From positions 25,088,349 to 25,152,348 of the forward strand of contig OX453276.1 of assembly GCA_949710005.1 (NCBI GenBank): 64,000 nucleotides of DNA, in the 5' to 3' direction. This document shows positions 35,283 through 61,087 of the stretch, piece by piece (the stretch's first letter is position 1; every line of letters begins with the position of its first letter). The DNA comes from Ricordea florida. Taxonomy: Eukaryota; Cnidaria; Anthozoa; Corallimorpharia; Ricordeidae. The notes beneath the pieces are model-generated. The model was given only the letters and a program-made list of their open reading frames with translations, was not told the origin of the DNA and did no database searches. The translations under genes and the position numbers were made by a program.

Positions 35283-35316
35283 TCAGCGCTTACGCGCCTC
35301 CCCGCTTCGCGGACCA

Positions 35317-35324: not shown

Positions 35325-35350
35325 CATAATGTTATGATACAAAAAAAATC

Positions 35351-35977: not shown

Positions 35978-35982
35978 CAAAG

Positions 35983-36537: not shown

Positions 36538-36577
36538 TAAACAGATCTAAAAACTTATTTGTAGCACCTAAATAACA

Positions 36578-36988: not shown

Positions 36989-37034
36989 TCTCAAAAGTAA
37001 TTTAAAAGTTTCTCAATGGTACAGTAAAAAAATT

Positions 37035-37253: not shown

Positions 37254-37254
37254 A

Positions 37255-37647
37255 ATGGCAGCAATAGCGATGATGATTGGTGGAGCTATATTGAATGCAA
37301 CCGCCTTTGTTGGTGGGAATGCCCTTGCAAAATATATATCTGGTAATAAAACAGATACGGAAAAAATACGACACGATAAAGCAATGGAAAAATACCAAAG
37401 AGATTACGCAGAATATCAGGAAAAAAGACAAAAAAGGATTGATTGGGAAATGAAAAGAAAAGATGAAAAATACCAAGCATCAAAAAATATTTCGGCTACA
37501 AATCAGGCTTTTGAATTGTACGACCAAATGACTGAACCAAAATTCTCTGATTATTACAAACCAAGCGATGATCAAAAAACAGGAGAAATGGTATATGTTG
37601 GGGCTGGGATGATGGGTTTGGGTTACGCGGTCAGTAAAATATTATAA
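37255..37647 (+). CDS. Small membrane protein (130 aa), element 1
   Basis: N-terminal hydrophobic segment (IAMMIGGAILNATAFVGGNAL), a charged middle (ERxRHDKAMEKYQ-type), a conserved SDYY(K/R)P...DQKTGEMVYV motif and a C-terminal hydrophobic segment. Element 2 has the same protein (134 aa at 59457). Stop and start of neighbours are one base apart. Function unknown; likely virion membrane or assembly protein by context. Confidence 0.75.
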   Translation: MAAIAMMIGGAILNATAFVGGNALAKYISGNKTDTEKIRHDKAMEKYQRDYAEYQEKRQKRIDWEMKRKDEKYQASKNISATNQAFELYDQMTEPKFSDYYKPSDDQKTGEMVYVGAGMMGLGYAVSKIL

Positions 37648-37651
37648 ATTA

Positions 37652-37692
37652 TTATATAACTTGTAATTCATCGTTCAAAATAAGTTATATAA
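37652..37692. terminator. Hairpin between convergent genes, element 1
   Basis: TTATATAACTT (37652-37662) pairs perfectly with AAGTTATATAA (37682-37692), in the 62-bp gap between a plus-strand and a minus-strand gene end. A related hairpin with TTATATAAC lies at 42236-42265, also between convergent ends. A role in 3' end formation is inferred. Confidence 0.45.
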
Positions 37693-37709
37693 CACAAATG
37701 ATTTATTTT

Positions 37710-37976
37710 TTAGTTATTTTCGAGGCTATTTTTTTTCGTCATTTCTTCGTCACTAATTCTATTATCATTTTCTATTCCATATTTTTCAGTTACTTTTGCT
37801 CTTATTTCTCTTTTATATTCTTCAAAGTCTCTATCTGGGTCATGTTCTCTTTTCATTTTGCTTAATGTTTTACAAGCATCTTGCGGAGAAATATTTATTC
37901 CAAATTTTTTAGCGTATTTTACTAAATCCATATTACTAATTGTATTAGTATGATATTTTTGTTCTTCTTTGCTCAT
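37710..37976 (-). CDS. Hypothetical protein (88 aa), element 1, minus strand
   Basis: Start taken at the ATG 37974-37976 (MSKEEQKY); upstream extension would run through the promoter region. Highly charged, helix-rich, no membrane segment, no recognised domain. It sits in the slot where element 2 has an RPB6-like gene but is not related to it by eye. Its upstream box (37990-38022) is shared with the minus-strand gene at 42280-42891. Confidence 0.6.
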   Translation of the reverse strand: MSKEEQKYHTNTISNMDLVKYAKKFGINISPQDACKTLSKMKREHDPDRDFEEYKREIRAKVTEKYGIENDNRISDEEMTKKNSLENN

Positions 37977-37989
37977 TTTACTTCTTTTT

Positions 37990-38022
37990 ATTTTATATTT
38001 TTTCTTTTTAAATATCAATTTT
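37990..38022 (-). promoter_or_regulatory. Minus-strand promoter box, copy 1
   Basis: ATTTTATATTTT(TT)CTTTTTAAATATCAATTTT is shared with 42904-42934, differing by two T. In both cases it begins 13-14 nt upstream of a minus-strand ATG. Two copies this long with equal spacing argue for a regulatory site. Confidence 0.6.
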
Positions 38023-38046
38023 GATTTTATTTCCGGCTCAAGACGA

Positions 38047-38054
38047 TCTAAAGA
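38047..38054 (+). promoter_or_regulatory. TCTAAAGA box before acidic protein gene
   Basis: 28 nt before the ATG at 38083. Part of the YTAAARR series. Confidence 0.5.
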
Positions 38055-38082
38055 TTTCTTACTGATGAGTAAAAAAAAAATC

Positions 38083-38277
38083 ATGGCAGCATTACCAGAA
38101 GTACCGGACGATGATCCCATTGGATTGGGGGAAGAAGAAGATCCCGATGATTATGATGAAGATAGTCAACTACTTGGTAGAAAACCATCAAAAATGACTG
38201 TTCGTGTAACATCAACAACCAGAGGTGAAAGGAATTATGAGAATGAGGGAGCAAGACCAAAACAAGAGAGGAAATAA
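38083..38277 (+). CDS. Small acidic protein (64 aa), element 1
   Basis: Acidic N-terminal part (PDDDPIGLGEEEDPDDYDED) followed by a basic tail. An upstream ATG at 38065 in frame would add six residues (MSKKKI); the spacing of the TCTAAAGA box favours 38083. The same kind of acidic segment is fused to the N-terminus of the membrane protein of element 2 (60146). The stop is followed after two bases by the ATG of the next gene. Confidence 0.6.
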   Translation: MAALPEVPDDDPIGLGEEEDPDDYDEDSQLLGRKPSKMTVRVTSTTRGERNYENEGARPKQERK

Positions 38278-38279
38278 CT

Positions 38280-39284
38280 ATGAGCCTTATGGAAAAGGAA
38301 AATGATAAAGAAGCTTGGGAAGAAATTTTAAGAAAATTTCCAAATGCTAAACCTATTTTATTTTCTCAATATAATGATTTTGGTAAAATACAAGTTAAAC
38401 TCACGCGAGTAAAATCTGTATGGCATGATTTATATGATAAAAATGGTGATATTAATAAAAAACTCCCCGACGGCATAATAGGGGCTCTGGGTAAAAGGGC
38501 AGGAGAAGTTGTGCAAACAGGTGATAATCTTTTGTCTCAATTGGATGAGAAAAATGAAGAACTTGTGGATTTGCGTAATGCATTGAAGGGTTTAAGACCA
38601 GCAGTGGAAACAAGTCAAATCGAAATAGCGCGATATGTTTCAGTTGAAAAAGATTTGAGGAGTATTATCGAACGACAACAAACTGATATGGCTGAAAAAG
38701 ATAGTTTTTTAGAAGAAGCAGTTAGACAGAAGATTGATGCAAGACAATATGCAGAAACTTTACTTAATAATTTGCGAGAAATCAAAACTGAGAATGAAAA
38801 GGGTAAGAAAGATTTGGCTAGCTTGAAAAATATTGAACAAAGTAGAGATAGGTTGGCAAAAAGGGTTGAAACTTACGATGAACTAGCAAGAAAACAGTTA
38901 ATATTAAACGAAAATGAAATGGAAGATATCGGGAGAAGAAACGAAGAAATACTAAAAAATATGACATTAAGAGATCGATTAAAGTATATATTTAAAAAGT
39001 ATGGTTTTACGGTCTTTGCTGTTTTAAGTGCGGTGGGGGTTGTAATTGGGGCTATAGTTTCCAATCTTACAAAGGGTTTATCAAAATTAGGGAAAGGAGT
39101 TGGAAATGGTTTGAAAACTTTAGGTAAAAAATTGGGGGAAATATTACCGGGAATGGTTGGCGCAATAGTTAGCTTTCTTTTCAAAACGGCTGGTGAGGTT
39201 GTCGGATTTTTGGGTAAGAATGCTTGGCTTTTAATAATGGCTGTAGTTCTATATTTTGTAGAACAAATGAAGAAGAGAAAGTAA
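38280..39284 (+). CDS. Coiled-coil membrane-active-like protein (334 aa), element 1
   Basis: N-terminal domain (about 10-75), long charged coiled coil (about 80-225), then a strongly conserved C-terminal third: a hydrophobic stretch (TVFAVLSAVGVVIGAIVSNL), a Lys/Gly amphipathic stretch (KGLSKLGKGVGNGLKTLGKK), a second hydrophobic stretch and a final WLLIMAVVLYFVEQ. The element 2 protein (313 aa) is nearly the same there. The amphipathic part recalls membrane-disrupting virion proteins such as adenovirus pVI in style only. Likely a virion membrane or penetration protein; this is inference. Confidence 0.75.
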   Translation: MSLMEKENDKEAWEEILRKFPNAKPILFSQYNDFGKIQVKLTRVKSVWHDLYDKNGDINKKLPDGIIGALGKRAGEVVQTGDNLLSQLDEKNEELVDLRNALKGLRPAVETSQIEIARYVSVEKDLRSIIERQQTDMAEKDSFLEEAVRQKIDARQYAETLLNNLREIKTENEKGKKDLASLKNIEQSRDRLAKRVETYDELARKQLILNENEMEDIGRRNEEILKNMTLRDRLKYIFKKYGFTVFAVLSAVGVVIGAIVSNLTKGLSKLGKGVGNGLKTLGKKLGEILPGMVGAIVSFLFKTAGEVVGFLGKNAWLLIMAVVLYFVEQMKKRK

Positions 39285-39288
39285 CAAG

Positions 39289-39296
39289 TTTAAAGA
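39289..39296 (+). promoter_or_regulatory. TTTAAAGA box
   Basis: 24 nt before the ATG at 39321. Part of the YTAAARR series. Confidence 0.5.
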
Positions 39297-39320
39297 TATC
39301 ACGGTGATCAGTAAAATACA

Positions 39321-39920
39321 ATGGAACAATACAATGGAATTTACCCCGTATTACCCAATAATACAGATCCTGTTAATTTCAGACTACAAAAATCAAGCGA
39401 GGTATTACAAAATCTCGAGAAAGAAATAAAACATTACGAAGAAGTGCGGAAAAAATATAACAGGGCGCGAGGAATATGTTCAAAAATTAGTGTTTCCGGA
39501 GGATTTATTTCAGTTATTCTATCGGCAAGCGGATTGGGAACTTCACTCACGGGATTTGGCGCTGTTATCGGTGTGCCTTTGGGCGTGGTCGGCGGTATTT
39601 TTGGAGGTTTGACGATTGGATTTGGTTTCGCCTCTAAAAGTCTTTCCTCCAAAGTTAGTAAACACGAACAAACCGTTGCAATTGCAAAATCAAAATTAAA
39701 CACCATTAGCGATTTAGTCTCAAAAGCTCTGAAAGATAATGCAATATCCGATCAAGAATTTTCCATAATTTTAGCGGAGTTGGGAAAGTTTCAAAAACTG
39801 AAGCAAGAAGTTCGTCAAAAATACAGAAAAGATTCAGAAAAAAACTTGGACATGTCTGTGATAAGGAGGGAAGTCCGCGAAGATATATTGAAAGAACTTA
39901 CCGGAGGGAAAGGACATTAA
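39321..39920 (+). CDS. Gly-rich membrane protein (199 aa), element 1
   Basis: Soluble N-terminal part with HYEEVRKKYNRARG, a long Gly-rich hydrophobic region (ISVILSASGLGTSLTGFGAV and VVGGIFGGLTIGFGFAS, about 58-110) and a charged helical C-terminus (LVSKALKDNAISDQEFS). Element 2 encodes the same protein with the same length (61943-62542). Function unknown; likely sits in a membrane by its composition. Confidence 0.75.
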   Translation: MEQYNGIYPVLPNNTDPVNFRLQKSSEVLQNLEKEIKHYEEVRKKYNRARGICSKISVSGGFISVILSASGLGTSLTGFGAVIGVPLGVVGGIFGGLTIGFGFASKSLSSKVSKHEQTVAIAKSKLNTISDLVSKALKDNAISDQEFSIILAELGKFQKLKQEVRQKYRKDSEKNLDMSVIRREVREDILKELTGGKGH

Positions 39921-39980
39921 AACTTGTATATGAGAAAACCGAAGTTGGTTGCAATTGTTTTACATCTTATTCTTAAAAGA

Positions 39981-39988
39981 TCTAAAGA
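39981..39988 (+). promoter_or_regulatory. TCTAAAGA box within a short inverted repeat
   Basis: 28 nt before the ATG at 40017. It lies between CTTATTCTT and AAGAATAAG, which could pair around it. Confidence 0.5.
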
Positions 39989-40016
39989 TCGCATTACCTG
40001 AAACACAAAGAATAAG

Positions 40017-41540
40017 ATGTTATTGGATGATTTCAAAAATCGTTACCCAAACGCGAAACTCGATAAATTTACATTTGTGAATGACTCGTTTGACGGATAT
40101 ATTAAATGGAAAGTTAATGGAACAACAATTATGTCTGATGATGATCCTTCTGGAAAAACTTGGACTGCAAATCTTTCTAATGATTTGAAAACATTATTAT
40201 GGCAAGATTTGGGGGAAGAAATTAAAATCAAGAAAAGTTCATTCCCAAAAAGTTTAACATTTACGAAACAAAAATACCCAATACCCGGGGTTAAATTTGA
40301 TGATTTTACAACTGATGTTACAAAAATGCTAACCGAGTTAGATATATATGTTTCAGATAAAAAGAAATTCACCGCAAATATGAGAAACATATTTAAATCA
40401 CAAGTTGTAACATTTAATACCGCAAAGGAATGCAAAAGATGGTTGAGTAAGCCTGATTTTTATTATTGGCCTCAACAACTTAACTTTGCTGTTTGGTGCG
40501 CAACATCTGGTTGCGGTATAAGTCTCTTTGAAAGTCTAAATTATCCTAAAGTAATTAGTAGTTTTATAAAGTTTCACATATGCTTTACAATAAGAAGAAT
40601 AATATATGAATTAAATGTAACATTACCTGACGAACAAACTTTTTCGATAAAAAATAATCAATATGATAAAGTTGCATATAATCGACTGTGTAAAGAGTTT
40701 GGAGTTAGTAATAATTCTGACTTTAGATGGAAAGGTGGAAGAAATCATGGTTTGGGTGATATATTTATTTATTACAGCTCAGGAGGAAATGAAAATTTAT
40801 ATATTGAAAGAAATTATGATCATGATGCAAATACCTGGCCGGGGCAAAATAAATTTTCTGATGAGGGTTATAAGGATGGAGATGGAAATAAAATCTCGTT
40901 TATTAGAAATGATCTATTTAGTGATTTCAAATATGCATGGTTTATTCCTATGGCGGGGCATGGTCTCACCAAAGCGGGGCTTGGAAGATTAAATCGATCC
41001 GCAGAGGCTTTTGTTTACTGTATTTTGGGTGCGCAAGTTAATACAAGAAACCCAATTTATGGCAAAGGCGGTGGAGCAATAGAAACACAAAATGAATTCA
41101 AAGCCTTATTCGAAAGTTCTATAAAAGTAAATGATATTTCTAAATCCGTTCAAAATTACCAACAATCTGTGCAGGAAACTAAATTACGGCTTGATTTGGC
41201 TGTTGCCCCTGGTGTTTGGTTGATGCCAAGTAATTTAATTATAAATACAGAAAGTGTGGTTGGGTACAATAATAAACTGAAAATAGCAACAGAAGATATG
41301 ACTTTTGGGGTAAATAATTCAATAAATGTTGAGACAAAAAATGTCGGAATACCTAATAGCTTAGGATCGACAAAAGTTTTATTAAATACCAATCCGCAAC
41401 CGGCGAAAACAAAACTAAGCAATGCTGATGAATCAAACAATGCGGAAGAAGTTAGTAATATAGAAACATCCTCTCATCAAAATAATCTTATTGCTTTAAT
41501 GCTTGTTGGAGGATTATTGTCCTGGTTTTTATTTCGCTAA
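40017..41540 (+). CDS. Conserved tail-anchored protein (507 aa), element 1
   Basis: Large protein conserved with element 2 (62613 onward). Shared blocks: WPQQLNFAVWCATSGCGIS, FESLNYPKV, SNNSDFRWKGGRN, GLTKAGLGRLNRSAEAFVYC and LRLDLA.APGVWLMPSN. The C-terminus ends in one hydrophobic segment (LIALMLVGGLLSWFLFR), so it is probably tail-anchored. The N-terminal 70 residues resemble the N-terminal domain of the 334-residue protein (PNAK...F and a spacing of Asp-rich turns). I do not recognise the family; a virion surface or assembly role is suggested by position only. Confidence 0.8.
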   Translation: MLLDDFKNRYPNAKLDKFTFVNDSFDGYIKWKVNGTTIMSDDDPSGKTWTANLSNDLKTLLWQDLGEEIKIKKSSFPKSLTFTKQKYPIPGVKFDDFTTDVTKMLTELDIYVSDKKKFTANMRNIFKSQVVTFNTAKECKRWLSKPDFYYWPQQLNFAVWCATSGCGISLFESLNYPKVISSFIKFHICFTIRRIIYELNVTLPDEQTFSIKNNQYDKVAYNRLCKEFGVSNNSDFRWKGGRNHGLGDIFIYYSSGGNENLYIERNYDHDANTWPGQNKFSDEGYKDGDGNKISFIRNDLFSDFKYAWFIPMAGHGLTKAGLGRLNRSAEAFVYCILGAQVNTRNPIYGKGGGAIETQNEFKALFESSIKVNDISKSVQNYQQSVQETKLRLDLAVAPGVWLMPSNLIINTESVVGYNNKLKIATEDMTFGVNNSINVETKNVGIPNSLGSTKVLLNTNPQPAKTKLSNADESNNAEEVSNIETSSHQNNLIALMLVGGLLSWFLFR

Positions 41541-41557
41541 TGTTTTGATTATATAAA

Positions 41558-41565
41558 TCTAAAGA
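41558..41565 (+). promoter_or_regulatory. TCTAAAGA box within an inverted repeat, before penton gene
   Basis: 25 nt before the ATG at 41591. It is enclosed by GTTTTGATTA (from about 41542) and TAATCAAAAC (to about 41584). Confidence 0.55.
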
Positions 41566-41590
41566 TGAGCGCGATGTAATCAAAACAAAA

Positions 41591-42226
41591 ATGCTGAGTA
41601 TTACAATGTATGATTCTGAAACACGGGTTCATTTAGATCCGCCGCTGAAAAATCTTCGGGAGATACAGCTTCTGGATTGTAATATAAAAACCAAAAGATT
41701 GATTAATTTCAAAGATCAACAGATATTATCCAAAGATAATAATCAGCCTCTCATAATAATACAACCAGGCACATATTCTCTGCGAAATATTCAATCAATC
41801 TTTCTTAATGATACTGGTAGGGAAAAGATAACAATAATTGAGACTGATACTGTTGACTATCTTTATTCCAATAAGAACTTCAACATTAAACTTACGAGAG
41901 GATTGTCGTTTGGTTTAGGCGTTCCAGAATTTATAGATCCTGGTAAATTATACCCCATAAATATTCAGTTTAAGGAGCCGCTGAGAATTATATGTAGTAT
42001 AGTGGATAATAAATCTTCATATATGAATAAAACCAAATATGGAGAACCTGTAAAACTTGCTCCATCACACCTACTCGCGAACATACCCTCAAAGGATTAT
42101 CCAACAATTCCGGTTCAAAAATATGAGAGCCCCATAAACCACTTTGATTTAACTATCTTAGACAGCGAATGGAAAAAACTTGATCTTAGGGGTTCGCCCA
42201 TAACTTTTAGTTTAAGATTTAGATAA
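41591..42226 (+). CDS. Probable penton (minor capsid) protein (211 aa), element 1
   Basis: Size and place fit the single jelly-roll penton of Polintons. Conserved with the 209-residue protein of element 2: MLSITMY.SE.RV.LDPPL, IETDTVDYLYSNK.FNIKLTRG, SIVDNKSSY, LAPSHLLANIPS.DYPTIPVQ and GSPITFSLRFR. No membrane segment. The jelly-roll assignment is inferred, not seen. In element 2 the gene stands two places earlier in the order. Confidence 0.7.
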   Translation: MLSITMYDSETRVHLDPPLKNLREIQLLDCNIKTKRLINFKDQQILSKDNNQPLIIIQPGTYSLRNIQSIFLNDTGREKITIIETDTVDYLYSNKNFNIKLTRGLSFGLGVPEFIDPGKLYPINIQFKEPLRIICSIVDNKSSYMNKTKYGEPVKLAPSHLLANIPSKDYPTIPVQKYESPINHFDLTILDSEWKKLDLRGSPITFSLRFR

Positions 42227-42235
42227 TTTTTTTTT

Positions 42236-42265
42236 GTTATGTAACCAGTACTTAGGTTATATAAC
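42236..42265. terminator. Hairpin between convergent genes, element 1
   Basis: GTTATGTAACC (42236-42246) pairs with GGTTATATAAC (42255-42265), one mismatch, in the gap between the penton gene and the minus-strand 203-residue gene. Similar in sequence to the hairpin at 37652-37692. Confidence 0.45.
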
Positions 42266-42279
42266 ATAATTAGATAATA

Positions 42280-42891
42280 TTATTCGTCGGGTAAAGAATT
42301 AAAAATTTCTTGCTCTTCAATATCATAACACCAATCCGCAACTCTTTTGGGGTGCCATGCTACAACCAATAAATCATCGCACAATGATTTGAAAAATAAC
42401 TCTTTATGTGCAATCTTATGTTTATTTAAATTAACACTTACTTTTATTTTTTTTATTACAAAATTTTTATCAAATACTTCAATTCTGCATTCCTCATCGT
42501 GATAAGCAAGATAAACATCATTTTTATAAAAATTATGAATTGCCTCTCCGTTTACAATAACCCAACCACAACATGGATCAAAATCATATTCGTATTCATT
42601 TACAAAAAAATCTTTATTGGCTATTTCTAAAATTTTTCTCGCGAATTCATTAGTGTTAATTCCACCAACACCAAAATTTGTTTTTCCTCCAAAACTAATA
42701 TGGCGCGTGAAATCATAATTTTTATTATAGTATTCCGCACAAAAATTTATTGGCCAACACAAAATTTTTTTTTTGGATAAATATCCCCTATTTTTTGATA
42801 AATTTTTTAATAGGCCCCCTTTTATTTCCTCTATAAATTCACAAATATTAAGATTCTTATTGTTGAAATACCTGAGATTTATTTTTTCCAT
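42280..42891 (-). CDS. Protein with C-terminal AWHPxRxxDWC motif (203 aa), element 1
   Basis: Ends with LLVVAWHPKRVADWCYD, a motif (W-HP-x-R-x3-W-C) that recurs in proteins of large DNA viruses (recollection, not searched). The relative in element 2 (49076-49678) has the same motif and lies at the opposite end of that element. The middle is charged and has no membrane segment. Function unknown. Its upstream box (42904-42934) matches that of the other minus-strand gene at 37990. Confidence 0.7.
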   Translation of the reverse strand: MEKINLRYFNNKNLNICEFIEEIKGGLLKNLSKNRGYLSKKKILCWPINFCAEYYNKNYDFTRHISFGGKTNFGVGGINTNEFARKILEIANKDFFVNEYEYDFDPCCGWVIVNGEAIHNFYKNDVYLAYHDEECRIEVFDKNFVIKKIKVSVNLNKHKIAHKELFFKSLCDDLLVVAWHPKRVADWCYDIEEQEIFNSLPDE

Positions 42892-42903
42892 TTTGATTTT
42901 TAT

Positions 42904-42934
42904 ATTTTATATTTTCTTTTTAAATATCAATTTT
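42904..42934 (-). promoter_or_regulatory. Minus-strand promoter box, copy 2
   Basis: Shares CTTTTTAAATATCAATTTT with 37990-38022 and lies 13 nt upstream of the ATG of the 203-residue gene. Confidence 0.6.
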
Positions 42935-42988
42935 TTTGTTATTAAACCAAAATAAAGGTTTCATAACATAATTACCTATTCTTCGCTT

Positions 42989-43444
42989 TTATTCTAAATC
43001 ATAAAATAATTTCATTCTGCAATCCTTGCAAGAAGCTTTTTGCTTGTCATGTACACATATTTGCGAACCACCGCATTCTTTACATTGTTGTTTATGTTTA
43101 TTATGTTTGCATATTTGTGAACCTTGACATTCTTTGCAATGTTGTTTTTGTTTATTATGACAGCATATTTGCGTACCCATGCATTCCTTACATCGATATT
43201 TATATTTATTATGCAAACAATTATACCCACCGCATTCGCTACAAATTTTTTTTATTTTCTCATGATCGCAAATAATTCTACTAATAGAGATAGCTTTTTC
43301 AATTAAACCAGTAATTCCCTCATCTTTAAGTTTTGCAATTTCATCAATTAGTTCTTGCTTATTCATTTTTGCTCTGCCTTTAATTTCTAGATCTTTCGCT
43401 ATTATTCTTAGTTCAAAAATATATAATCTTCTTAACCGATCCAT
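42989..43444 (-). CDS. SAP-like plus Cys/His repeat protein (151 aa), element 1
   Basis: Starts inside the right inverted repeat, so its first six residues (MDRLRR) are identical to those of the polymerase. The N-terminal part (LRIIAKDLEIKGRAKMNKQELIDEI) looks like a SAP DNA-binding motif. The rest is about six repeats of 14-15 residues built on C.H....KQxCKEC.GSQIC.H, a zinc-binding pattern also found in proteins of large DNA viruses (recollection). Probably a DNA- or RNA-binding protein. An in-frame TTG 24 nt upstream is a less likely start. Confidence 0.75.
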   Translation of the reverse strand: MDRLRRLYIFELRIIAKDLEIKGRAKMNKQELIDEIAKLKDEGITGLIEKAISISRIICDHEKIKKICSECGGYNCLHNKYKYRCKECMGTQICCHNKQKQHCKECQGSQICKHNKHKQQCKECGGSQICVHDKQKASCKDCRMKLFYDLE

Positions 43445-43861
43445 AATTACTTTTGTAAGAATTATCAAATCTTTAAGCCGCTTTTCAAATTTTTAATCCG
43501 CCTGTCCGAGAAATATCACCTAATAAATCTCGTCAAAATTCCTGTGTCTCAGTTCCGTCGGCTTCACCAATGCTGTGCAGAGGCTTTGCCACTGGATGGT
43601 TCTCGCCCTCCGCTCGATCCTCTCGCTCCGCCTGTCGGCCCCTTTCTTGGCCGAAACTTTGCAGAAACTTAGCGGCTTCAGCAATACCCAACAACGGCTT
43701 GATGCGGGCTTTTGGAGGTCTTAGGCATTTTGGCAAGTATTTATTGGCTTTTATGCTGCTGGTTAAATTCCTGATCAAATTTGAAAAACCAATTTAGCTT
43801 ATAAGCTAAAAAATCCTTGTCAAAATTCGTCTGTCTCAAAACCGCAGTTTTCTCCCTCTCT
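43427..43861 (-). repeat. Right terminal inverted repeat of element 1 (435 bp)
   Basis: Mirror of 27897-28331 with no difference seen. Ends TTTTCTCCCTCTCT, followed by the target duplication GCTTC(A). Confidence 0.95.
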
Positions 43862-44349
43862 GCTTCAATGGCCATAATTAGTTTTACTATACTGTGCTCT
43901 TCTCCATAATTTCTCATTCTGCCTCACTTAGATATTAATTATGTTATTATCGATTTCTTGAATCAACCCTATTTAAACTTCTGTTGTATTAATGCTATTG
44001 AATGGAGTAAATTGAAATACAGACACAAATACACCGCTGATCTAGAACTGACATTATAAACTGGGATACAAGACTGAAATGAAGTAGCTTGAAAATTCAA
44101 CGATTGTCTCTACTTTTAATGAATCTCTTTATGTGGTGAAACGGAAAACTGTTAAATAATATAGTAATAGGGATTCTAAGAAAAGGAAAAAGCATAACTT
44201 TCTTCAAAAGTTTAAAGTGCGGGGAAAAGTGGCATATTTGTAAGATGAATTACACCAACTAGACCCGTAAAAACAAATTTTCGTCGACAAAACAGAATGT
44301 TAAATTGTTATTTAATGTATAAATTATCGCCTTCGAAAAATTAAGATTT
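43862..44349. other. TMTC-like intron 1 between element 1 and the MITE
   Basis: AT-rich sequence without recognised coding. Begins with the target duplication of element 1. Confidence 0.7.
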
Positions 44350-49771: not shown

Positions 49772-52700
49772 ATGGAGAATTTGACAGTGAAAGACTTGAG
49801 GTCAATTGCCAAAAGAGCTGGTGTGAGTGTTCGAGGATTCAGAAAGGCTGAAATGCTTACAGCGTTATCTGACATAGACTTCGAGAATTTGACAGTGAAG
49901 ATACTACGAACCATGGCCAAGAGGTCCGGTATTCGAGGTTCTGGCAGCATGCGTAAAGGGGCTCTTATTAATGCCGTCGGTTCCGTACAGGTGGTTGAAG
50001 CGAATGTTCCAATATCTGGTCCAGTTAGACCTATAAGAACAAGACCCGCCCGGGCTTCGTATGGAAGGGCTGTTGCTTCCGCCCGGCGTGAAATCATTCA
50101 GACCACAGAGTGGATAAGATCCAATGTTAGAGACCCAAACAGGAGGGCCATCACCAGGAGATTAAGAAGGGCAGCTGCGGCGGTTAGGAGGGAACCCGAG
50201 TTTTTCGTACCTGAAAGACATGAAACGGCTCTGAGAGGCTTTTTGAGGACTTACATAGTAAAGGGCAGAGCTGGATACGATCCAATTACATTTCTTGGCA
50301 AGGTTAGAACACCATTTGGTAGTTTATTGCATGGAATCAGGAAGCCATTCAAGTTGAAGTGTATTCTTTCATGTGGATTCGCGAGGAGGAACCCCCAAGA
50401 TAATCGTGTTATTGAGCGGAGTCAGGGTCATTTTCATTCACGGATGGAGACAGTGACAGCTTCAACAGACACACTCGCTTTGTTTGATAGCATCAAAGCT
50501 GGACTTGTTGAATTGGTGCAGAAATACGAGAATGAGCACTCTGGATGGGTGTTTGAAAGTGTGATTGACTTTCGTATCCATTTGAACCCGTTTCAATCGT
50601 TTTCTGGAACTTCATATATTAAATTACCACCCAAATTGGCTGCTAAGAAGGCAATCATCAATGTTAAGAACGAAGAAGACCAGGAGTGCTTCAAATGGGC
50701 AGTTACATCCGCTGTATTTCCAAGGGAGAAGGATGCCGGAAGACTAAACAAAGAGATGAGAGAGAATTCAGAGAAGCTCGATTGGTCGGGGATAGAGTTC
50801 CCAGTGGCAGCACTCAGTACAACTCAGATAGATAGGTTTGAAAGGCAGAACCCATATGGGATCAACATCCTTGGTTATGAGAATGGCGAGCCAACCCTAA
50901 TCAGACGCAGTAAAAAGTCAGGGGTGGAAAAGATAAACTTGCTCTTGATATCAAACGAAGAGACAAATCACTACTGTTGGATCAAAAACATGTCAAGATT
51001 TGTCGAGTATAATAAACATCATGGCACTCGTTTCTATTGTGACAATTGCTTAAACTCGTTCAATTCTCAAAAGTCGTTGGACGACCATATGGAGTACTGC
51101 CTAAACAATGAATCAGTTAAAGTCCAGATGCCCATGGAAGATGATGGCAACCCAAAGTACATTACTTTCACGAACCACAGACGAAAGATGCAAGTGCCAT
51201 TTGTGATCTATGCTGATTTTGAGTGTTTCACGGAGAAGTTGGACACTTGTTTCCCGGATGACAGGTATAGTTTCACAAATCAGTACCAGAAGCACAAGCC
51301 ATCAGGTTTCTGTTACCTTATCAAGTGTTTCGATGATGGTATCTTTGAGCCCAAGTTGGTGATGCGAACAGCCAACTCCCCCGAGGATGACATACCACAA
51401 ATGTTTCAGGAAAGCTTGGAGGAGGACATCAAAAAGATTTATGATCAATTCAAGTCTGAAAGGAAGCTTGTAATGAAGAATAGCGATCATAGGAATCATA
51501 GAAAGGCTACTCATTGCCATATTTGTGAGGGTGAATTGGGGAACGATAAGGTGGTCGACCACTGTCATTTTACAGGCAGGTACAGAGGAGCAGCCCACAA
51601 GAAATGTAACCTGGAATTTAGCACACCCAAGTTCTTTCCAGTCATCTTCCACAACTTGTCTGGTTATGACAGTCACTTGTTTATCAAGAAGATGGGAGTG
51701 TCAGAGGGTAAGATTGATTGTATCCCACTCAACGATGAAAAGTACATCTCATTCACAAAGGGGATTGTGGTTGAAAAGTTCATGAAGAAGGAGGATGGTA
51801 AGGAGAAGGAGGTTCAGATTAAGCGAACCATTAGATTTGTAGACAGTTTTAGGTTCATGGCAAGTGGTTTGGCTAGATTGGCTGACAATTTGCCGAGAGA
51901 GTCTTTGGCAAACCTCTCGAGATACTATGAAGGGGCAAACTTTGATCTTTTGGCTAGGAAGGGAGTGTTTCCCTATGATTGGTTTGATGGCTTTGACAAG
52001 TTACAAGTGTCCAGACTACCAACCAAGGATGAATTTTATTCGATATTATACGACACTGACATATCGGATGACGATTATCAACATGCCGGAAACGTGTGGG
52101 AGGCTTTTGGTATGAGAAGTTTCAGGGATTACCATGACTTGTATCTCAAAACAGATGTGATCCTGTTGGCTGACGTCTTTGAGAATTTCAGAGGGGTTTG
52201 TATGAAGAACTATGGGTTGGATCCAGCATGGCATTATACTGCGCCTGGATTGGCTTGGGATGCTACGTTGAAGATCACCAAGGTTGAGTTGGAGCTTCTG
52301 AGGGATCCCGATATGCTGATTATGGTGGAGAATGGTATCAGAGGTGGAATCTCAACAATCTCGACGAGGCACGGGAAGGCCAATAATCGATATATGAAGA
52401 ATTATAATCCCAAGTTGCCTACAAAGTACATCACATATTTGGATGCGAATGGGCTCTATGGCTATGCAATGACCAAGGCTTTACCAACCCATGGTTTTGA
52501 ATGGATGAGTGATCAAGAGTTGGCAGACTGGAGGAACCATCCATGCATATTGGAGGTGGACTTAGAGTACCCGTTGGAGTTACACGATCTCCATAATGAT
52601 TATCCGTTGGCTCCAGAGAGGTTGGATGTTAACGGGGTTGTTAAGTTGGTTCCCAATTTGAGGCCCAAGAAGAAGTACATTCTACACCACGAATCTCTGA

Positions 52701-53647
52701 AACAGTATTTGTCGTTGGGTTTGAAGTTAACCAAGGTTCACAGAGGGATCATATTCGAGGAATCGGAATGGCTGAGGTCCTACATTGACTTGAACAATAG
52801 TTTGAGAGCCAGGGCTGAGAATGATTTCGAAAAGGACTTCTTCAAGTTGATGAACAACTCAGTGTTTGGCAAGACCATGGAGAACATTAGAAAGAGGGTG
52901 GATATCCAGTTGGTCACTGAGGAGAAGAAAGCGCGTAAGTTGATTGTGAAGCCAAACTTCCATCATAGGAACATCTTTTGCGAGGATCTGACCGCCTTCC
53001 ACATGAAGAGAACGAAATTGGTGTTTGATAAGCCCATTTACTTGGGGTTGTCTATTCTGGATTTGAGTAAGACTGTCATGTACGATTTCCATTACAGGTA
53101 CATAAAGCCCAAGTATGGGGAGAAAGCTAAGTTGCTTTTCACAGACACGGATTCTTTAGCCTATGTGATAGAGACTGAGGACTTTTACAGGGACATCAGT
53201 CCAGATGTGAGGGCTAAATTTGACACCAGCAATTACCCCAGGGAGCATCCATCCGGGATTGAGACCGGAGTGAACAAAAAGGTCGGAGGGATGTTCAAAG
53301 ACGAGGCTGGTGGTGAACAGATCACGGAATTTGTGGGTCTGAGGGCTAAACTGTATGCTTTCAAGACGGACAAGGAGAAGGAAGTCAAGAAGTGTAAGGG
53401 TGTTAACAAGGCAGTGGTTAGCAAAAGCATAAGTTTCCAAGATTACAAGACTTGTCTTTTCAGTGGCCAATCCCAGAGACGGAAGATGAACACCATAAGG
53501 AGTCATAGCCATGACATCTACACTGAAACCATCAACAAGATTGCATTATCACGCGAGGACGATAAACGTGTGATAATGGATGATGGTATAAACACTTATG
53601 CACATGGTCATTTCAGAACGCTGGAAGGTGGTGATTCGGTGTCTTGA
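49772..53647 (+). CDS. POLB: Family B DNA polymerase, protein-primed type (1291 aa), element 2
   Basis: Start is ATG 49772. The N-terminus has two SAP-like repeats (MENLTVKDLRSIAKRAG and FENLTVKILRTMAKRSG). Then a C2HC-type finger (FYCDNCLNSF...H...C), exonuclease motif YADFEC (D482, E484), an HNH/endonuclease VII-like insert (HCHIC...DHCHFTGRYRG, about 578-613), Exo II HNLSGYDSH, polymerase motifs YLDANGLYG (D891), MNNSVFGKTMEN (N1029) and TDTDSLAY (D1125, D1127). It lacks the Pro-rich stretch and both Cys-rich inserts of the element 1 enzyme. The 3' end overlaps the integrase by 40 bp. No break seen. Confidence 0.93.
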   Translation: MENLTVKDLRSIAKRAGVSVRGFRKAEMLTALSDIDFENLTVKILRTMAKRSGIRGSGSMRKGALINAVGSVQVVEANVPISGPVRPIRTRPARASYGRAVASARREIIQTTEWIRSNVRDPNRRAITRRLRRAAAAVRREPEFFVPERHETALRGFLRTYIVKGRAGYDPITFLGKVRTPFGSLLHGIRKPFKLKCILSCGFARRNPQDNRVIERSQGHFHSRMETVTASTDTLALFDSIKAGLVELVQKYENEHSGWVFESVIDFRIHLNPFQSFSGTSYIKLPPKLAAKKAIINVKNEEDQECFKWAVTSAVFPREKDAGRLNKEMRENSEKLDWSGIEFPVAALSTTQIDRFERQNPYGINILGYENGEPTLIRRSKKSGVEKINLLLISNEETNHYCWIKNMSRFVEYNKHHGTRFYCDNCLNSFNSQKSLDDHMEYCLNNESVKVQMPMEDDGNPKYITFTNHRRKMQVPFVIYADFECFTEKLDTCFPDDRYSFTNQYQKHKPSGFCYLIKCFDDGIFEPKLVMRTANSPEDDIPQMFQESLEEDIKKIYDQFKSERKLVMKNSDHRNHRKATHCHICEGELGNDKVVDHCHFTGRYRGAAHKKCNLEFSTPKFFPVIFHNLSGYDSHLFIKKMGVSEGKIDCIPLNDEKYISFTKGIVVEKFMKKEDGKEKEVQIKRTIRFVDSFRFMASGLARLADNLPRESLANLSRYYEGANFDLLARKGVFPYDWFDGFDKLQVSRLPTKDEFYSILYDTDISDDDYQHAGNVWEAFGMRSFRDYHDLYLKTDVILLADVFENFRGVCMKNYGLDPAWHYTAPGLAWDATLKITKVELELLRDPDMLIMVENGIRGGISTISTRHGKANNRYMKNYNPKLPTKYITYLDANGLYGYAMTKALPTHGFEWMSDQELADWRNHPCILEVDLEYPLELHDLHNDYPLAPERLDVNGVVKLVPNLRPKKKYILHHESLKQYLSLGLKLTKVHRGIIFEESEWLRSYIDLNNSLRARAENDFEKDFFKLMNNSVFGKTMENIRKRVDIQLVTEEKKARKLIVKPNFHHRNIFCEDLTAFHMKRTKLVFDKPIYLGLSILDLSKTVMYDFHYRYIKPKYGEKAKLLFTDTDSLAYVIETEDFYRDISPDVRAKFDTSNYPREHPSGIETGVNKKVGGMFKDEAGGEQITEFVGLRAKLYAFKTDKEKEVKKCKGVNKAVVSKSISFQDYKTCLFSGQSQRRKMNTIRSHSHDIYTETINKIALSREDDKRVIMDDGINTYAHGHFRTLEGGDSVS

Positions 53648-54597
53648 GGTACAAATTGAAGCTCTTCGCAAACGAATCCTCGTTTTGGACCACCACTCAA
53701 ATAATACAAGACTGGTTGACCTGGTTCGATTATGGTTCGAGCCAAATCATAGACTTCAAGACTCCATATGGGATCAGTAGCCCTTCGTTTGTCCCCACCT
53801 TCATCTTCACCGGGGGCATAAAGATATCTGACTTGAACATCTGGAGGTAATTTCTTCTCATTCAACCCCACAGGTCGTTTGTAGTCTGGATTTTTGATGC
53901 CAATCGAGTTCATTTTCAAAGCTTCGTCAGGCTCTTTACCAGTAATACGGGTGGGTTCACTGTTGAGGGTCTTCATGATGGCGGGCAATCTATTCACCCA
54001 AACAGTGGATCGGGTGTCACTAATCATCTCTTGGGCGTATTGATGGCTGAATAGCTTCTCACCGAGAGTCCTGTTGGCGCTCTCCACAAAAGCTTGAGCT
54101 CTATGATTCCCAGCTTCACTACGCTGGATTGTGACTTGATGCTTATTCATAAGAGTTGTTACATCACCCTTGAATTCTGTTCCCGGATCCACCATTAATG
54201 TTTGTGGCCACTTCAACTTACGGGAATAAATCCGTTGAAAGGCATTGGCAACTTCACCACTCTCCTTTGAGGTCAATGGTTCGGCATCCTTGTATCTTGA
54301 CGCGATATCAATCACGACTAAGGCATAGCGGTATGTTTTTCTTCTCACTGTATCGTGAGGAAGAAACAACAAGTCCGCCTGATGAATCTGGTTAGGCTTA
54401 TTCACACTCCAATGTGGCCTGGGTATATACTTGGGGGCTGGGAGGTAAATTTGCCACAAGGTTTGCTTTTCCAACCACTCTTTGGCGACCTTTTCACTAA
54501 CTTTGGCTGCTTTGGCCAATTTGGGTATGGCTGAGTATCCTTTCCAGTATCCGTCAGTGGAGTAATATAATCGATTTAAAACGTTGGAATCAGTCAT
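53608..54597 (-). CDS. INT: Retroviral-type integrase (329 aa), element 2
   Basis: DDE integrase. Catalytic residues D75 (HQADLLFLP), D137 (LMVDPGTEF) and E172 (AFVESANRTLGE); C-terminal VLYYLSGGPKRGFVCEEL as in element 1. The ATG 54595-54597 is only 26 bp from the divergent capsid ATG, so both share one short promoter region. Intact. Confidence 0.93.
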   Translation of the reverse strand: MTDSNVLNRLYYSTDGYWKGYSAIPKLAKAAKVSEKVAKEWLEKQTLWQIYLPAPKYIPRPHWSVNKPNQIHQADLLFLPHDTVRRKTYRYALVVIDIASRYKDAEPLTSKESGEVANAFQRIYSRKLKWPQTLMVDPGTEFKGDVTTLMNKHQVTIQRSEAGNHRAQAFVESANRTLGEKLFSHQYAQEMISDTRSTVWVNRLPAIMKTLNSEPTRITGKEPDEALKMNSIGIKNPDYKRPVGLNEKKLPPDVQVRYLYAPGEDEGGDKRRATDPIWSLEVYDLARTIIEPGQPVLYYLSGGPKRGFVCEELQFVPQDTESPPSSVLK

Positions 54598-54623: not shown

Positions 54624-55859
54624 ATGGCTTCTATACCAAGCATTCTTGATACCAATCGCGTTCCAAGGACTCGCGAAGGGTTGAAGGCTATGACGTCATT
54701 AAATAGGGTCACACTAAACCCATCTTCAGCCGAACCTGGTGAGACACTATACATTGAAATACCAAGATTGAGTGAAAATCTTGTGATTGTGCCCGGTAGC
54801 GTCTACATAACCTTTGACATGGTTGTAACCGGGCACAAAGACAACACTCTTGTTAATAATTTGGGAAGGAATCTGATTTCACAGTATAAGGTTCTATTTG
54901 GTGGTGAAATCGTAGAGGATCTTGGTAGATTTGATTTGTTCAAGACTTACCACGACTTGTTTCTGACCACCGAAGACCGTGAGAATAGATTGAGACAGGG
55001 CATATCTGACGTTAACATAAGGAGGATTAGGACCAATGCGGGGAACAAAGATACATCAAAAGCAAGGGACAATACTTTAGCTGTGATTCACAACACTAGG
55101 TACGCCATTCCATTAGATCACACAATCCTCAAAGATCATGGCGTATTTTATCCAATAGGATTACTCCATCCACTTAGATTTGAATTGACTTTGGCCAAAG
55201 TTTCTGATGTTGTGGTTTATTCAAACCGTGAAGCACCGCCTGATTATAAATTAATAAACATGGAGATGGAGTACCAGTGCATATCAAGCAATTCTTTGGC
55301 AAGTCAGGCTGTTGCGTCTTACAGAAATGGGAAAGGGTTCACGTATGAAAAGGTACTTCTTCACAAAACCTTCACAATCTCTGAGGCTAATGATTCTGTG
55401 ATAAATCAGCATGTCAATGTGCCGAGGAGATCTATGACTGGTATACTATGTCTTTTCACCGCCCCTCATGCAGAAGGCCTCAGGGACTCTGAGATTTTTG
55501 CAAACCCAAAGATCACGTCAGTCAAGATTGACATAGATGGAGTGCCCAACCAAGTTTATTTGAAAGGTATGATGGCGACTGATTTGTGGCAATCCATAAT
55601 CAAGCGAGTTGGCCTTAGTGATTCAATCGATGAATCCGATTTCTATACAGATAAGTTCGCTTTGTGGATTGACCTGAGGACTTATCCAGACAACGACATC
55701 CATGGAAGTGGTTTGTACATTCACGCTACTCGTGATGGAGTGACTTTGGAAATTAAGAGAGAAAAGGTAGGAACTAGAGTTCTTACATGTCACATGTTTG
55801 TTATTGCTGACGCTGTCATGACCATTGTTAATGGTGGTCTAAAGGAGATTAGATATTAG
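54624..55859 (+). CDS. MCP: Probable major capsid protein (411 aa), element 2
   Basis: Same family as the 413-residue protein of element 1, with matching length and blocks: NRVTLNPSSAEPGETLY, NNLGRNL, LKDHGVFYP, VPRRSMTGILCLF, LRDSEIF.NPK, DKFALWIDLRT and TCHMFVIADAVM. No membrane segment. Assignment as capsid by position and conservation; the fold is inferred. Intact. Confidence 0.75.
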   Translation: MASIPSILDTNRVPRTREGLKAMTSLNRVTLNPSSAEPGETLYIEIPRLSENLVIVPGSVYITFDMVVTGHKDNTLVNNLGRNLISQYKVLFGGEIVEDLGRFDLFKTYHDLFLTTEDRENRLRQGISDVNIRRIRTNAGNKDTSKARDNTLAVIHNTRYAIPLDHTILKDHGVFYPIGLLHPLRFELTLAKVSDVVVYSNREAPPDYKLINMEMEYQCISSNSLASQAVASYRNGKGFTYEKVLLHKTFTISEANDSVINQHVNVPRRSMTGILCLFTAPHAEGLRDSEIFANPKITSVKIDIDGVPNQVYLKGMMATDLWQSIIKRVGLSDSIDESDFYTDKFALWIDLRTYPDNDIHGSGLYIHATRDGVTLEIKREKVGTRVLTCHMFVIADAVMTIVNGGLKEIRY

Positions 55860-55931: not shown

Positions 55932-56570
55932 ATGATGAACGAACTCAAAGATTTGATTCCATTCAATTGTATCATCACTGGTCCCACGAATTGCGGAAAG
56001 ACCCAATACATAGTGGAGCAGCTTCGAGGCCATTATAGGCAAGTGTTTGATTATATTGTGTTGATTTGCCCAACATATGCCCATAACAAGACTTATAGAG
56101 GCTTTGCCAAGGGGGACAAACGATTCTTTGTACTGTCGCCAGATGCGAGTGATCATGACGAAATCAACAATTTGTTGATGGACTGTGAATCGTTCTTCTC
56201 GGGTACCAATACGCTCCTAATATTGGACGACTGTGCCGTTTCCAAGGATCTGAAGAATAGGTCCAACAAATTCATCGGTTTGGCCTTCTCTGGGAGACAC
56301 GTAGGGATATCGGTCTGGGTTCTCACTCAGCAATTGACATCTATAGCCAAACCATTCCGTGAAAATGTAGCTTGTGTGGTCTCATTCCACAATCCATCAC
56401 AAACGGCGATGAAGATGCTTTTCGAGGAGTACGGCGGGGACCTGGATGCTGAAACGTGTAAGAAACTCAAGAAGCATCTTATGAATGAAAAGTATGCCAG
56501 GCTATGCTTCTCCCTTAGACATCCATTCCAAAATTATTTAGAGATACCAGCTTTAACGGCACAACCATGA
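55932..56570 (+). CDS. ATP: Genome-packaging ATPase, A32/FtsK-HerA type (212 aa), element 2
   Basis: Walker A GPTNCGKT, Walker B LLILDDC and LTQQL as in element 1, with long runs of identity (e.g. RSNKFI.LAFSGRH and FRENVACVV). Two ATGs in a row at the start. The stop overlaps the next start codon (ATGA at 56567-56570). Confidence 0.9.
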   Translation: MMNELKDLIPFNCIITGPTNCGKTQYIVEQLRGHYRQVFDYIVLICPTYAHNKTYRGFAKGDKRFFVLSPDASDHDEINNLLMDCESFFSGTNTLLILDDCAVSKDLKNRSNKFIGLAFSGRHVGISVWVLTQQLTSIAKPFRENVACVVSFHNPSQTAMKMLFEEYGGDLDAETCKKLKKHLMNEKYARLCFSLRHPFQNYLEIPALTAQP

Positions 56571-59052: not shown

Positions 59053-59439
59053 ATGACTGGAGAGAATAACAAGTCTTTGAAAATATATAATGAGATTGAA
59101 GTTTTTGATAAGCTTGCCAAATATGAGTACCTGTATGCGTTAACAGGACATATTCAAAGTGCAGTGGTTAATACATTTAGGAACAATAGAGAACTTAAGA
59201 CTGATGATGTTCCAGATACTGTTGAAGGTTTATTCAGGTGGTATTACACGGGAGACAATCGATACTATAACCATTATGGCGAGCCTGAATTGGAAGATTT
59301 CGTTTCTAAATACAGAGATATTGCTATAAAATGTAGAAGAGCCCAACAACAACGAGGCCCACACCCATTGGTGACATTTATGTTTGGGGTGTTGACACCG
59401 ATCGCATTATACACAGGCTCGAAATTGTTTAAGAAGTAG
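59053..59439 (+). CDS. Tail-anchored protein (128 aa), element 2 only
   Basis: ATG 59053 follows the previous stop by three bases. Charged soluble part (ALTGHIQSAVVNTF, GLFRWYYTGDNRYYNHYG), then a C-terminal membrane segment (VTFMFGVLTPIALYTGSKLF). No relative in element 1 and no recognised domain. Confidence 0.65.
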   Translation: MTGENNKSLKIYNEIEVFDKLAKYEYLYALTGHIQSAVVNTFRNNRELKTDDVPDTVEGLFRWYYTGDNRYYNHYGEPELEDFVSKYRDIAIKCRRAQQQRGPHPLVTFMFGVLTPIALYTGSKLFKK

Positions 59440-59456: not shown

Positions 59457-59861
59457 ATGGCGACTATAGCAATCATGCTTGGAGGGGCAGTCCTCAATGC
59501 AACAGCCTTCATTGGTGGAAACTATTTAGCAAAGGTCATTAGCGGCTCGTCTTCGTCCGATCTCCAACTTGAAAGGGAGAGGCATGACAAAGCCATGGAG
59601 AAGTACCAGAAAGACTATGCTGCTTATCAAGAGACACGAATGGCTTATATTGACTTTGAAAATCGTAGGAAGGGTGATGAGAATCAAGCCTCTGAGAACA
59701 TATCAAAGACGGATGAAGCGCTGAGATTGTACAATCAAATGGGCAATCCCCCTAAATTCTCTGACTATTACCGCCCCAATTCAGATCAAAAAACTGGTGA
59801 AATGGTTTATGTTTCTGGTGGGATTTTAGCCTTGGGATACATTGCCAGCAAGTGGATATAA
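59457..59861 (+). CDS. Small membrane protein (134 aa), element 2
   Basis: Counterpart of the 130-residue protein of element 1: IAIMLGGAVLNATAFIGGN, RHDKAMEKYQKDYA, FSDYYRP and DQKTGEMVYV, with a C-terminal hydrophobic segment. Its TAA shares a base with the next ATG (TAATG). Confidence 0.78.
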   Translation: MATIAIMLGGAVLNATAFIGGNYLAKVISGSSSSDLQLERERHDKAMEKYQKDYAAYQETRMAYIDFENRRKGDENQASENISKTDEALRLYNQMGNPPKFSDYYRPNSDQKTGEMVYVSGGILALGYIASKWI

Positions 59862-60109
59862 TGAGTGACATAGTAACAACCCATGAATATGTTCGTTTGA
59901 TAGGATTCAGAGCTGAGCAATTGCAGATGGGCAGTAAACCAGTGATAGACTGGCCATTTGATTTCAATCCTATAGCCATTGCCAAAAGTGAACTCAAACA
60001 GCGTGTCTTACCACTCAACATAATCAGGAAAATACCAGACTGTAATTCAAAGACTGGTTTCCGCGATGAAGTATGGAACCCAAACGACATGCATATACGA
60101 GACTTTTGA
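59861..60109 (+). CDS. RPB6/omega-type RNA polymerase subunit-like protein (82 aa), element 2
   Basis: The whole protein aligns with the conserved C-terminal domain of RPB6 (small RNA polymerase II subunit; bacterial omega; also found in large DNA viruses). Seen: TTHEYVRLIGFRAEQLQMGS (T..E..R..G.RA.Q), KPVIDW, FNPIAIAKSELKQRVLP (IA..EL....lP), NIIRKIPD and a final acidic turn. No membrane segment. It overlaps the previous stop (TAATG) and is followed by the coiled-coil membrane protein gene. In element 1 the same slot holds an unrelated minus-strand gene. In RPB6 this domain stabilises the polymerase clamp and binds partners; here it might redirect host polymerase II to element promoters. Function is inference; family call is strong. 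Confidence 0.82.
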   Translation: MSDIVTTHEYVRLIGFRAEQLQMGSKPVIDWPFDFNPIAIAKSELKQRVLPLNIIRKIPDCNSKTGFRDEVWNPNDMHIRDF

Positions 60110-60145
60110 AATCAATTTAGAAAGCTGCCATATTCAACTTCAAAT

Positions 60146-61087
60146 ATGGCAACTGCTTATGATCCCGATTTGGATCCGACTACACTAAATGAGTCAGGTG
60201 ATGGTGATGATGGGGATGATACGCTTTACTTGAGCCCAATCACAAAGACATCCACCACTCGTCCAATTGACCCTGATTATGAAGAGGAAGAAACCTCGTT
60301 CGGTGGTGTTGATGAAACTCGGCCCTTATTGATAGAAGAGATGGAAATAGAACAAGATGAAGCCTGGGCCAAGATTAGATCAAGATTCCCCAAAGTTGAT
60401 ACGTCCAAGATTACAGCCGGGCTGAATAAATTCAAACAAGTAGTCGTCAAATTGATTAGAAAAGGATCAAAACCTTACGTGTTGTTCAAAGGTAATGATG
60501 AATTGAATGATGGGTTGCCGGCCACCATCAAAAATAGTCTAGGCCCAAAAGCAGAAGAGGTTGTGGAAACTAATGATGGTGTGATCACTGAGAAAAAGGG
60601 ATTGCTCACCAAAATGAAGGAGACGCTAAGATTCCAAATAGATAAGCCGCTGAAGACCCCAGAAGAAGAAAATAACATAGAGGCCCTGGCGAGTGAAATC
60701 GGTGAGCGTGAGAAGGAGATAGCCAATCTGGAAGGTGAGAATGAGAGAATCCAGGAACGAATGTCATTGCGGGATCGGGTGAAGGCCATTTTCAAGAAAT
60801 ACGGATTCACAGTCTTTGCTGTCATGAGTGCCGTTGGAGTGGTCATTGGTGTCATAGTCTCCAACCTCTCCAAAGGGCTATCGAAATTGGGCAAGGGCGT
60901 TGGTGATGGGCTAAAAACTCTTGGGAAGAAACTTGGTGAATTGCTGCCTGGGATGGTGGGCGCTATTGTAAGCTTTCTGTTCAAGACTGCTGGAGAGGTC
61001 GTCTCATTCCTGGGTAAACATGCTTGGCTGTTAATAATGGCAGTTGTGCTTTACTTCATAGAAGAGTTAAAAAGGAAACGTAAATGA
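60146..61087 (+). CDS. Acidic plus coiled-coil membrane-active-like protein (313 aa), element 2
   Basis: Fusion of two parts that are separate in element 1: an acidic N-terminus (about 1-70) like the 64-residue protein, then the N-terminal domain, a shortened coiled coil (about 165-210) and the conserved C-terminal third (FTVFAVMSAVGVVIG, KGLSKLGKGVGDGLKTLGKK, LPGMVGAIVSFLFKTAGEVV, WLLIMAVVLYFIEEL). Ends overlapping the next start (ATGA at 61084-61087). Confidence 0.78.
   Translation: MATAYDPDLDPTTLNESGDGDDGDDTLYLSPITKTSTTRPIDPDYEEEETSFGGVDETRPLLIEEMEIEQDEAWAKIRSRFPKVDTSKITAGLNKFKQVVVKLIRKGSKPYVLFKGNDELNDGLPATIKNSLGPKAEEVVETNDGVITEKKGLLTKMKETLRFQIDKPLKTPEEENNIEALASEIGEREKEIANLEGENERIQERMSLRDRVKAIFKKYGFTVFAVMSAVGVVIGVIVSNLSKGLSKLGKGVGDGLKTLGKKLGELLPGMVGAIVSFLFKTAGEVVSFLGKHAWLLIMAVVLYFIEELKRKRK

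Follow-up and report, generated by a model that had tools for sequence, protein, structure and literature searches.

An RPB6-like RNA polymerase subunit gene in a putative Polinton family of Ricordea florida

Background

RPB6 (RPABC2) is a subunit shared by eukaryotic Pol I, II and III. Homologues are also present in nucleocytoplasmic large DNA viruses (NCLDVs), among them ASFV C147L and the marseillevirus and mimivirus proteins; these viruses encode RPB1 and RPB2 too. The acidic N-terminal tail of human RPB6 binds the p62 subunit of TFIIH, and archaeal RpoK and most bacterial omega subunits are without such a tail (PMC8754651).

Two groups of virus-like elements are among the closest described systems. 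Yeast cytoplasmic virus-like elements such as pGKL2, which are Polinton-derived in one hypothesis, carry transcription genes: a two-subunit RNA polymerase, a capping enzyme and a helicase, with no mention of RPB6 in the accessible part of PMC6211774. That paper also says that no transcription genes similar to those of the yeast elements and NCLDVs had been reported from Polintoviruses. Mavirus and endogenous mavirus-like elements integrate and have one box before their genes, TCTA, which is the late promoter of the giant virus CroV; the host is a flagellate and the giant-virus helper is known, and RPB6 does not appear in the accessible part of this source (PMC8547959). In the open-licence literature, we found no report of RPB6 in Polintons, adintoviruses or Mavericks.

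Results and discussion

The RPB6-bearing element and a neighbouring Polinton

The window analysed here is a 64,000-nt stretch of the Ricordea florida genome (contig OX453276.1, positions 25,088,349 to 25,152,348, forward strand). An earlier note, made from its sequence alone, had read an 82-residue open reading frame (ORF) as an RPB6-like subunit encoded by a Polinton-like element. The relevant features, in window positions, are:

27896..43862, no strand assigned: neighbouring Polinton, used as comparison element; inverted repeats at 27896-28343 and 43415-43862
49772..53647, + strand: 1291-aa protein, read as DNA polymerase B; Endonuclease_7 and SAP-like matches (SAP below cut-off)
53608..54597, - strand: integrase (rve); Pfam E 2.3e-7, 31.5 bits, 1.1 below the cut-off of 32.6
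54624..55859, + strand: major capsid protein (Capsid_N) by sequence profile; Pfam E 1.6e-5, over the cut-off
55932..56570, + strand: packaging ATPase (Pox_A32 type); Pfam E 1.7e-11, over the cut-off
59428..59433, + strand: TTTAAG box, 29 nt before the 134-aa gene
59457..59861, + strand: 134-aa protein with hydrophobic ends, upstream neighbour of RPB6
59859..59863, + strand: TAATG, where the 134-aa gene's stop and the RPB6 start codon share a base
59861..60109, + strand: RPB6 homologue of 82 aa, by homology and predicted fold; ATG at 59861, TGA at 60109
60116..60121, + strand: TTTAGA box, 30 nt before the 313-aa gene
60146..61087, + strand: 313-aa membrane-type protein, downstream neighbour of RPB6

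From its sequence, the RPB6-bearing element, the right end of which lies beyond the window, is taken to be a Polinton. The 1291-aa protein is presumably its DNA polymerase B, judging by PolB-like motifs recognized by eye; Pfam gives no PolB match to this protein at E<=0.01. An ORF at 62613 was considered as a capsid protein and rejected, as Pfam has no match there and Capsid_N lies at 54624-55859. A 167-aa element protein (57834-58337, + strand) has a hydrophobic C-terminus and a near-threshold MH2 (SMAD) match that may be due to chance (E 6e-5, 23.8 vs 25 bits).

The inverted repeats of the neighbouring Polinton are 448 nt in length. This element begins with AGAGAGGGA and ends with TCCCTCTCT, and is flanked on both sides by GCTTC, a possible 5-bp target-site duplication (that of Polintons is usually 6 bp). 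No RPB6 was found in the three forward frames of its slot matching that of the RPB6 gene. The slot is occupied by an antisense 136-aa ORF (37710-38120, - strand) with a near-threshold DUF2624 match (E 6.2e-5, 24.2 vs 24.7 bits).

Identity of the RPB6 homologue

The reading of the 82-residue ORF as RPB6-like is upheld by PDB homology, a profile of six homologues and the predicted fold, which agree. The two findings that the earlier note named as refuting it, lack of a significant profile hit and a fold other than that of RPB6, were not obtained. A phmmer search of the PDB returned 27 matches at E<=10 (best 1.1e-7), every one of them RPB6, RpoK or ASFV C147L, and the six-homologue profile reaches 7.7e-12. 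C147L is the best PDB match and aligns with query residues 2-79, compared to 5-64 for human RPB6; this longer C-terminal alignment could mean a better fit to a viral polymerase. The RNA_pol_Rpb6 family search suggested in the earlier note gave a more qualified outcome: PF01192 does match (E 4.7e-4), but at 20.5 bits the match is below the curated cut-off of 26. In protein searches, the sequences nearest to the window protein (P0001) are P0002-P0008 and P0016, the last of which is a fragment. One copy in this genome, L048, has exactly the sequence of P0005, so that the same species or a close one is the probable source of this set. When PF01192 was applied to five relatives of the window protein, P0005 alone scored above the cut-off (26.9 bits); in the host genome, 11 of at least 86 matches do so, Polinton copies among these.

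A structure model built from 79 sequences (a six-sequence model was poor, with a pLDDT of 53.5) shows the RPB6 fold: overlaid by VIA-align 2, it superposes on human RPB6 at 1.0 A over 75 residues. NCLDV RPB6 proteins have this fold in common with the model. The BFVD search gave 23 matches at E<=0.001, of which 18 are named RNA polymerase proteins (from large DNA viruses, by our assignment to virus groups), one is named only as an ascovirus genome and four are nameless.

The Polinton protein shares the T..E..R..RA.Q, P..IA..E and R..P pattern with eukaryotic RPB6, and its core and C-terminus are complete. Its N-terminal tail is almost absent: 5-13 residues precede the EY motif in the Polinton sequences (P0001-P0006 and P0008), compared to a median of 35 in environmental relatives (53 rows, including the fragment P0016) and 38 in host RPB6, the sequence of which is incomplete. 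Unlike eukaryotic nuclear RPB6, it thus has no acidic N-terminal tail; it is also intronless, carries W-x(3)-F-N-P and is only 36% identical to the host protein.

Copies in the genome and selection

The ORF lies among Polinton genes and is present in this genome (538 Mb, 48 contigs) in at least 150 copies, most of them intact. These copies, from a search with the RPB6 protein in which 150 of 374 candidates were scored, are 81-100% identical to the query (E<=1.2e-42); 148 of the 150 are without a stop codon and two contain one. The PF01192 genome search (150 of 256 candidates scored) adds more diverged copies to the set: a stop lies inside three of its at least 86 matches and P0007 is also cut short, so that the frame is broken in some divergent copies. 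Searches with the packaging ATPase produced 5022 and 5046 first-look candidates (150 scored per search), a number that suggests massive Polinton expansion in this genome.

We read 40 RPB6 copies, the 20 best and 20 from lower ranks. All are open to the C-terminus except one, which ends three residues early. For 39 of these rows (75 codons; L004 was excluded because of an early stop), median dS is 0.32, median dN 0.049 and median omega 0.14. Of the 741 pairs, 717 have dS > 0.05, and omega stays below 1 in every one of these. The median omega of the 134-aa gene, after removal of rows with stops or too short, is 0.16 where RPB6 is present (41 loci) and 0.12 where it is absent (13 loci); the similarity of 0.14 to 0.16 indicates that RPB6 is selected like the neighbouring element gene.

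Gene slot, coupling and loss

The position of the gene is nearly constant. In 39 of the 40 copies the 134-aa gene terminates at -2 to +7 nt relative to the start of RPB6, and TAATG stands at the first ATG in 32/40; in L018, no long frame was found upstream. A member of the 313-aa gene family starts no more than 200 nt after RPB6 in 38/40 loci.

Presence of the gene is more variable. Of 5022 candidates for the ATPase, 150 were scored, and twenty elements were picked by hand from ranks 1-113 of these. Their ATPases are 98-100% identical to that of the window. The sample is not random, as the first pick was known to be absent from the RPB6 list. RPB6 is present in seven, and the 134-aa and 313-aa genes stand side by side in the other 13. 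Three of these empty sites have a 47-nt gap in which the last RPB6 bases are still visible and are clear deletions; in the other ten the gap is 37-38 nt and retains nothing of RPB6, and it is their tree position that leads us to read them as deletions. In a midpoint-rooted tree of the flanks (60 rows, three being loci fetched twice), the empty sites fall within the RPB6-bearing family and eight changes are needed, some of which could be mimicked by gene conversion between elements. This nesting suggests that these elements probably had RPB6 ancestrally and that an individual element can do without it. RPB6 is therefore best described as an accessory gene which a large Polinton family has maintained and which some closely related elements lack.

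That the ORF is RPB6 and a gene of the element is almost certain. A chance ORF or neutral passenger could be missing from some elements, as RPB6 is, and could score under the Pfam cut-off, as the window copy does; the homology, the predicted fold, the intact copies and omega all oppose this reading, and we consider it refuted to the point of being scarcely credible by the omega and homology results.

A rarer Polinton lineage of five distant copies (L041, L042 and L046, with L044 and L045 broken) has a shorter RPB6-like frame (1468-1683 of L041). Damage affects the majority of these copies. The L041 peptide is 42% identical to P0001 (E 1e-15) and 36% to host RPB6 (1e-9); several environmental sequences are also closer to it than host RPB6 is. 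With 150 of 359 candidates scored, a search for this shorter type found it at five places only, the remaining matches listed resembling the main type. In L041, L042 and L046 its slot lies between homologues of a 209-aa and a 199-aa gene, and this different slot implies more than one move or gain of RPB6. Near the RPB6-like remnant of L044 and L045, approximately 2.5 kb into each, the minus strand has ORFs (139 and 136 aa) in which a RING-finger-like cysteine/histidine pattern can be seen by eye.

Origin of the gene

After the Polinton copies, the nearest relatives are an environmental family (P0009-P0061 without P0016; 34-60% identity) on contigs of up to 534 kb, most members of which end in IRD plus one residue. 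The contigs that encode P0033, P0019 and P0045 span 176-534 kb. Beyond these are ChoanoV1 mimivirus RPB6 (1.5e-12) and then archaeal RpoK. The size of the contigs and the nearest named relative suggest that the environmental clade belongs to giant viruses. The host has a separate, spliced RPB6 gene with an acidic N-terminal exon (G000 C11:8.51 Mb).

In a tree of 87 rows and 105 columns (P0051, P0067, P0068, P0069 and P0073, which are long or odd, and three fragments left out), Polinton RPB6 forms one group (100/94) inside the environmental clade (100/87). An earlier 91-row tree, which had no host gene, included those five rows and left out the same three fragments, also nests the Polinton group. 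A tree of 105 columns is support rather than proof for this placement. On the question raised in the earlier note of whether the gene came from the host or from a virus, a virus-type source is favoured: forcing Polinton and host RPB6 into one clade lowers the log-likelihood by 24.2 (p-AU 0.039), a result to be read with the few columns and long host branch in mind.

Polintons pick up genes, and a copy of host RPB6 would fit both this habit and the 36% identity between the two proteins over 67 residues; the short tree, with its long branch for the host row, also leaves room for it. Against such a copy stand the rejection of the joint clade, the 100/87 support for the environmental clade that holds the Polinton rows, and a W-x(3)-F-[ND]-P signature that, by eye, is common to Polinton RPB6 and most of the environmental clade and is not found in host RPB6. 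We thus regard a host source as very improbable, and Polinton RPB6 as probably of virus-like origin. Scans of viral contigs with P0001, two further queries, an environmental profile and an ATPase pair found no relative; this negative is weak because even the Polinton ATPase was without a match, and the collection may lack such elements. A tblastn search of a phage collection found nothing.

Promoter boxes

The shared promoter boxes noted earlier in this element are real. A loose box (T[CT]TA[AG]A, CTTAAA or TTTAAG) starts within -50 to -18 of the start codon in 11 of the 14 listed genes of the RPB6 element and 10 of the 13 of the neighbouring Polinton, counts that none of 2000 dinucleotide shuffles reached (means 2.1 and 2.7, respectively), in a contrast inflated by the choice of pattern after the sequences had been viewed. 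The boxes counted begin 25-49 nt ahead of the start codon. The stricter TYTARA is present before 6/14 genes of the RPB6 element (reached in 3/2000 shuffles) and 9/13 of the neighbouring Polinton (0/2000). A plain search for shared 6-8-mers was not significant for the RPB6 element. Across genome copies, which are related and hence not independent, the box occurs before the 134-aa gene in 53/57 loci and the 313-aa gene in 56/57; the loose box is found before RPB6 in none of 44, and in the window copy there is none.

The main difference from TATA is in the second base of the box; host TBP might accordingly recognize it, and the box may be nothing more than a variant of TATA. There is overlap as well with TCTA, which mavirus and CroV late genes have in common, and the boxes of the neighbouring Polinton are often TCTAAA.

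Proposed mechanism and partner polymerase

Unlike the case in NCLDVs, a PF00562 search of the genome, covering RPB2 only, found no virus-type or intronless RPB2. Its 14 exon-sized matches lie at four places, with a longest open frame of 97 aa, as expected for the host's own polymerases. The polymerase that Polinton RPB6 joins should therefore come either from the host or from an infecting virus; we lean tentatively towards a host enzyme, at slightly less than even confidence.

The account that we prefer as a whole, also with somewhat under even confidence, is that a translationally coupled RPB6 joins a host polymerase and favours the promoters of the element. The TTTAAG box before the 134-aa gene would start a two-gene transcript with RPB6 second, and RPB6 would be translated by termination-reinitiation at TAATG. 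The protein might then replace host RPB6 at the clamp base of some host polymerase, most likely Pol II, giving an enzyme without the acidic tail. The binding of the human tail to TFIIH p62 (PMC8754651) is the ground for proposing that this tail-less polymerase might favour short promoters with a TYTARA-type box, or heed host initiation control less, at the time of particle production. RPB6 would be diffusible, and elements that lost the gene might borrow the subunit, which would explain the pattern of presence and absence. Control of transcription by the element, as the earlier note had hinted, is in our view plausible; RPB6 is dispensable in single elements (13/20 of the hand-picked ones are without it) and has no box of its own, and the PF00562 search found no virus-type RPB2. 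Against the mechanism, elements without RPB6 have also multiplied, and the frame is broken in some divergent copies. RpoK and most omega subunits are likewise tail-less (PMC8754651), so tail loss need not mean retargeting, nor does the tail define the whole family.

The polymerase of an infecting giant virus might instead transcribe the Polinton in the manner of a virophage. The boxes would then be promoters of the virus, and RPB6 would either be contributed to the viral enzyme as a subunit or compete inside it. The grouping of RPB6 with the environmental clade and its contigs of up to 534 kb, the 18 of 23 BFVD matches, the lack of a virus-type RPB2 in the PF00562 search and the resemblance of the TCTAAA boxes to the TCTA of mavirus and CroV (PMC8547959) would all fit. 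No such giant virus is known here, however, the viral nature of the environmental clade is itself deduced, and Polintons have their own DNA polymerase and integrase; we rate this role as rather unlikely. It is less likely still, and indeed improbable, that tail-less RPB6 is a poison or decoy which cripples the transcription of the host or a competitor virus, as a gene of offence or defence. Its accessory distribution and missing tail would suit such a role, but a core and C-terminus at omega 0.14 are more conserved than a simple poison needs.

Conclusions

In one hypothesis, a Polinton-like virus that gained transcription genes was the ancestor of giant viruses and of the yeast cytoplasmic elements. 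RPB6 is a candidate for such a gene: by sequence and predicted fold it is a bona fide RNA polymerase subunit, and the animal Polinton family that carries it has at least 150 copies of it in this one genome. We offer as a speculation, and a doubtful one, that the tail-less RPB6 of viral descent directs a polymerase, be it host Pol II or the enzyme of an unseen giant virus, to a private TYTARA-type box, and that such Polintons are a living intermediate on the route proposed to lead from nuclear Polintons to cytoplasmic viruses or plasmids that transcribe their own genes. Closely related elements that have or lack RPB6, side by side in one genome, constitute a natural experiment on its role. The presence of a giant-virus-related RPB6 in a virus-like element suggests that some such elements tamper with the machine that reads genes.
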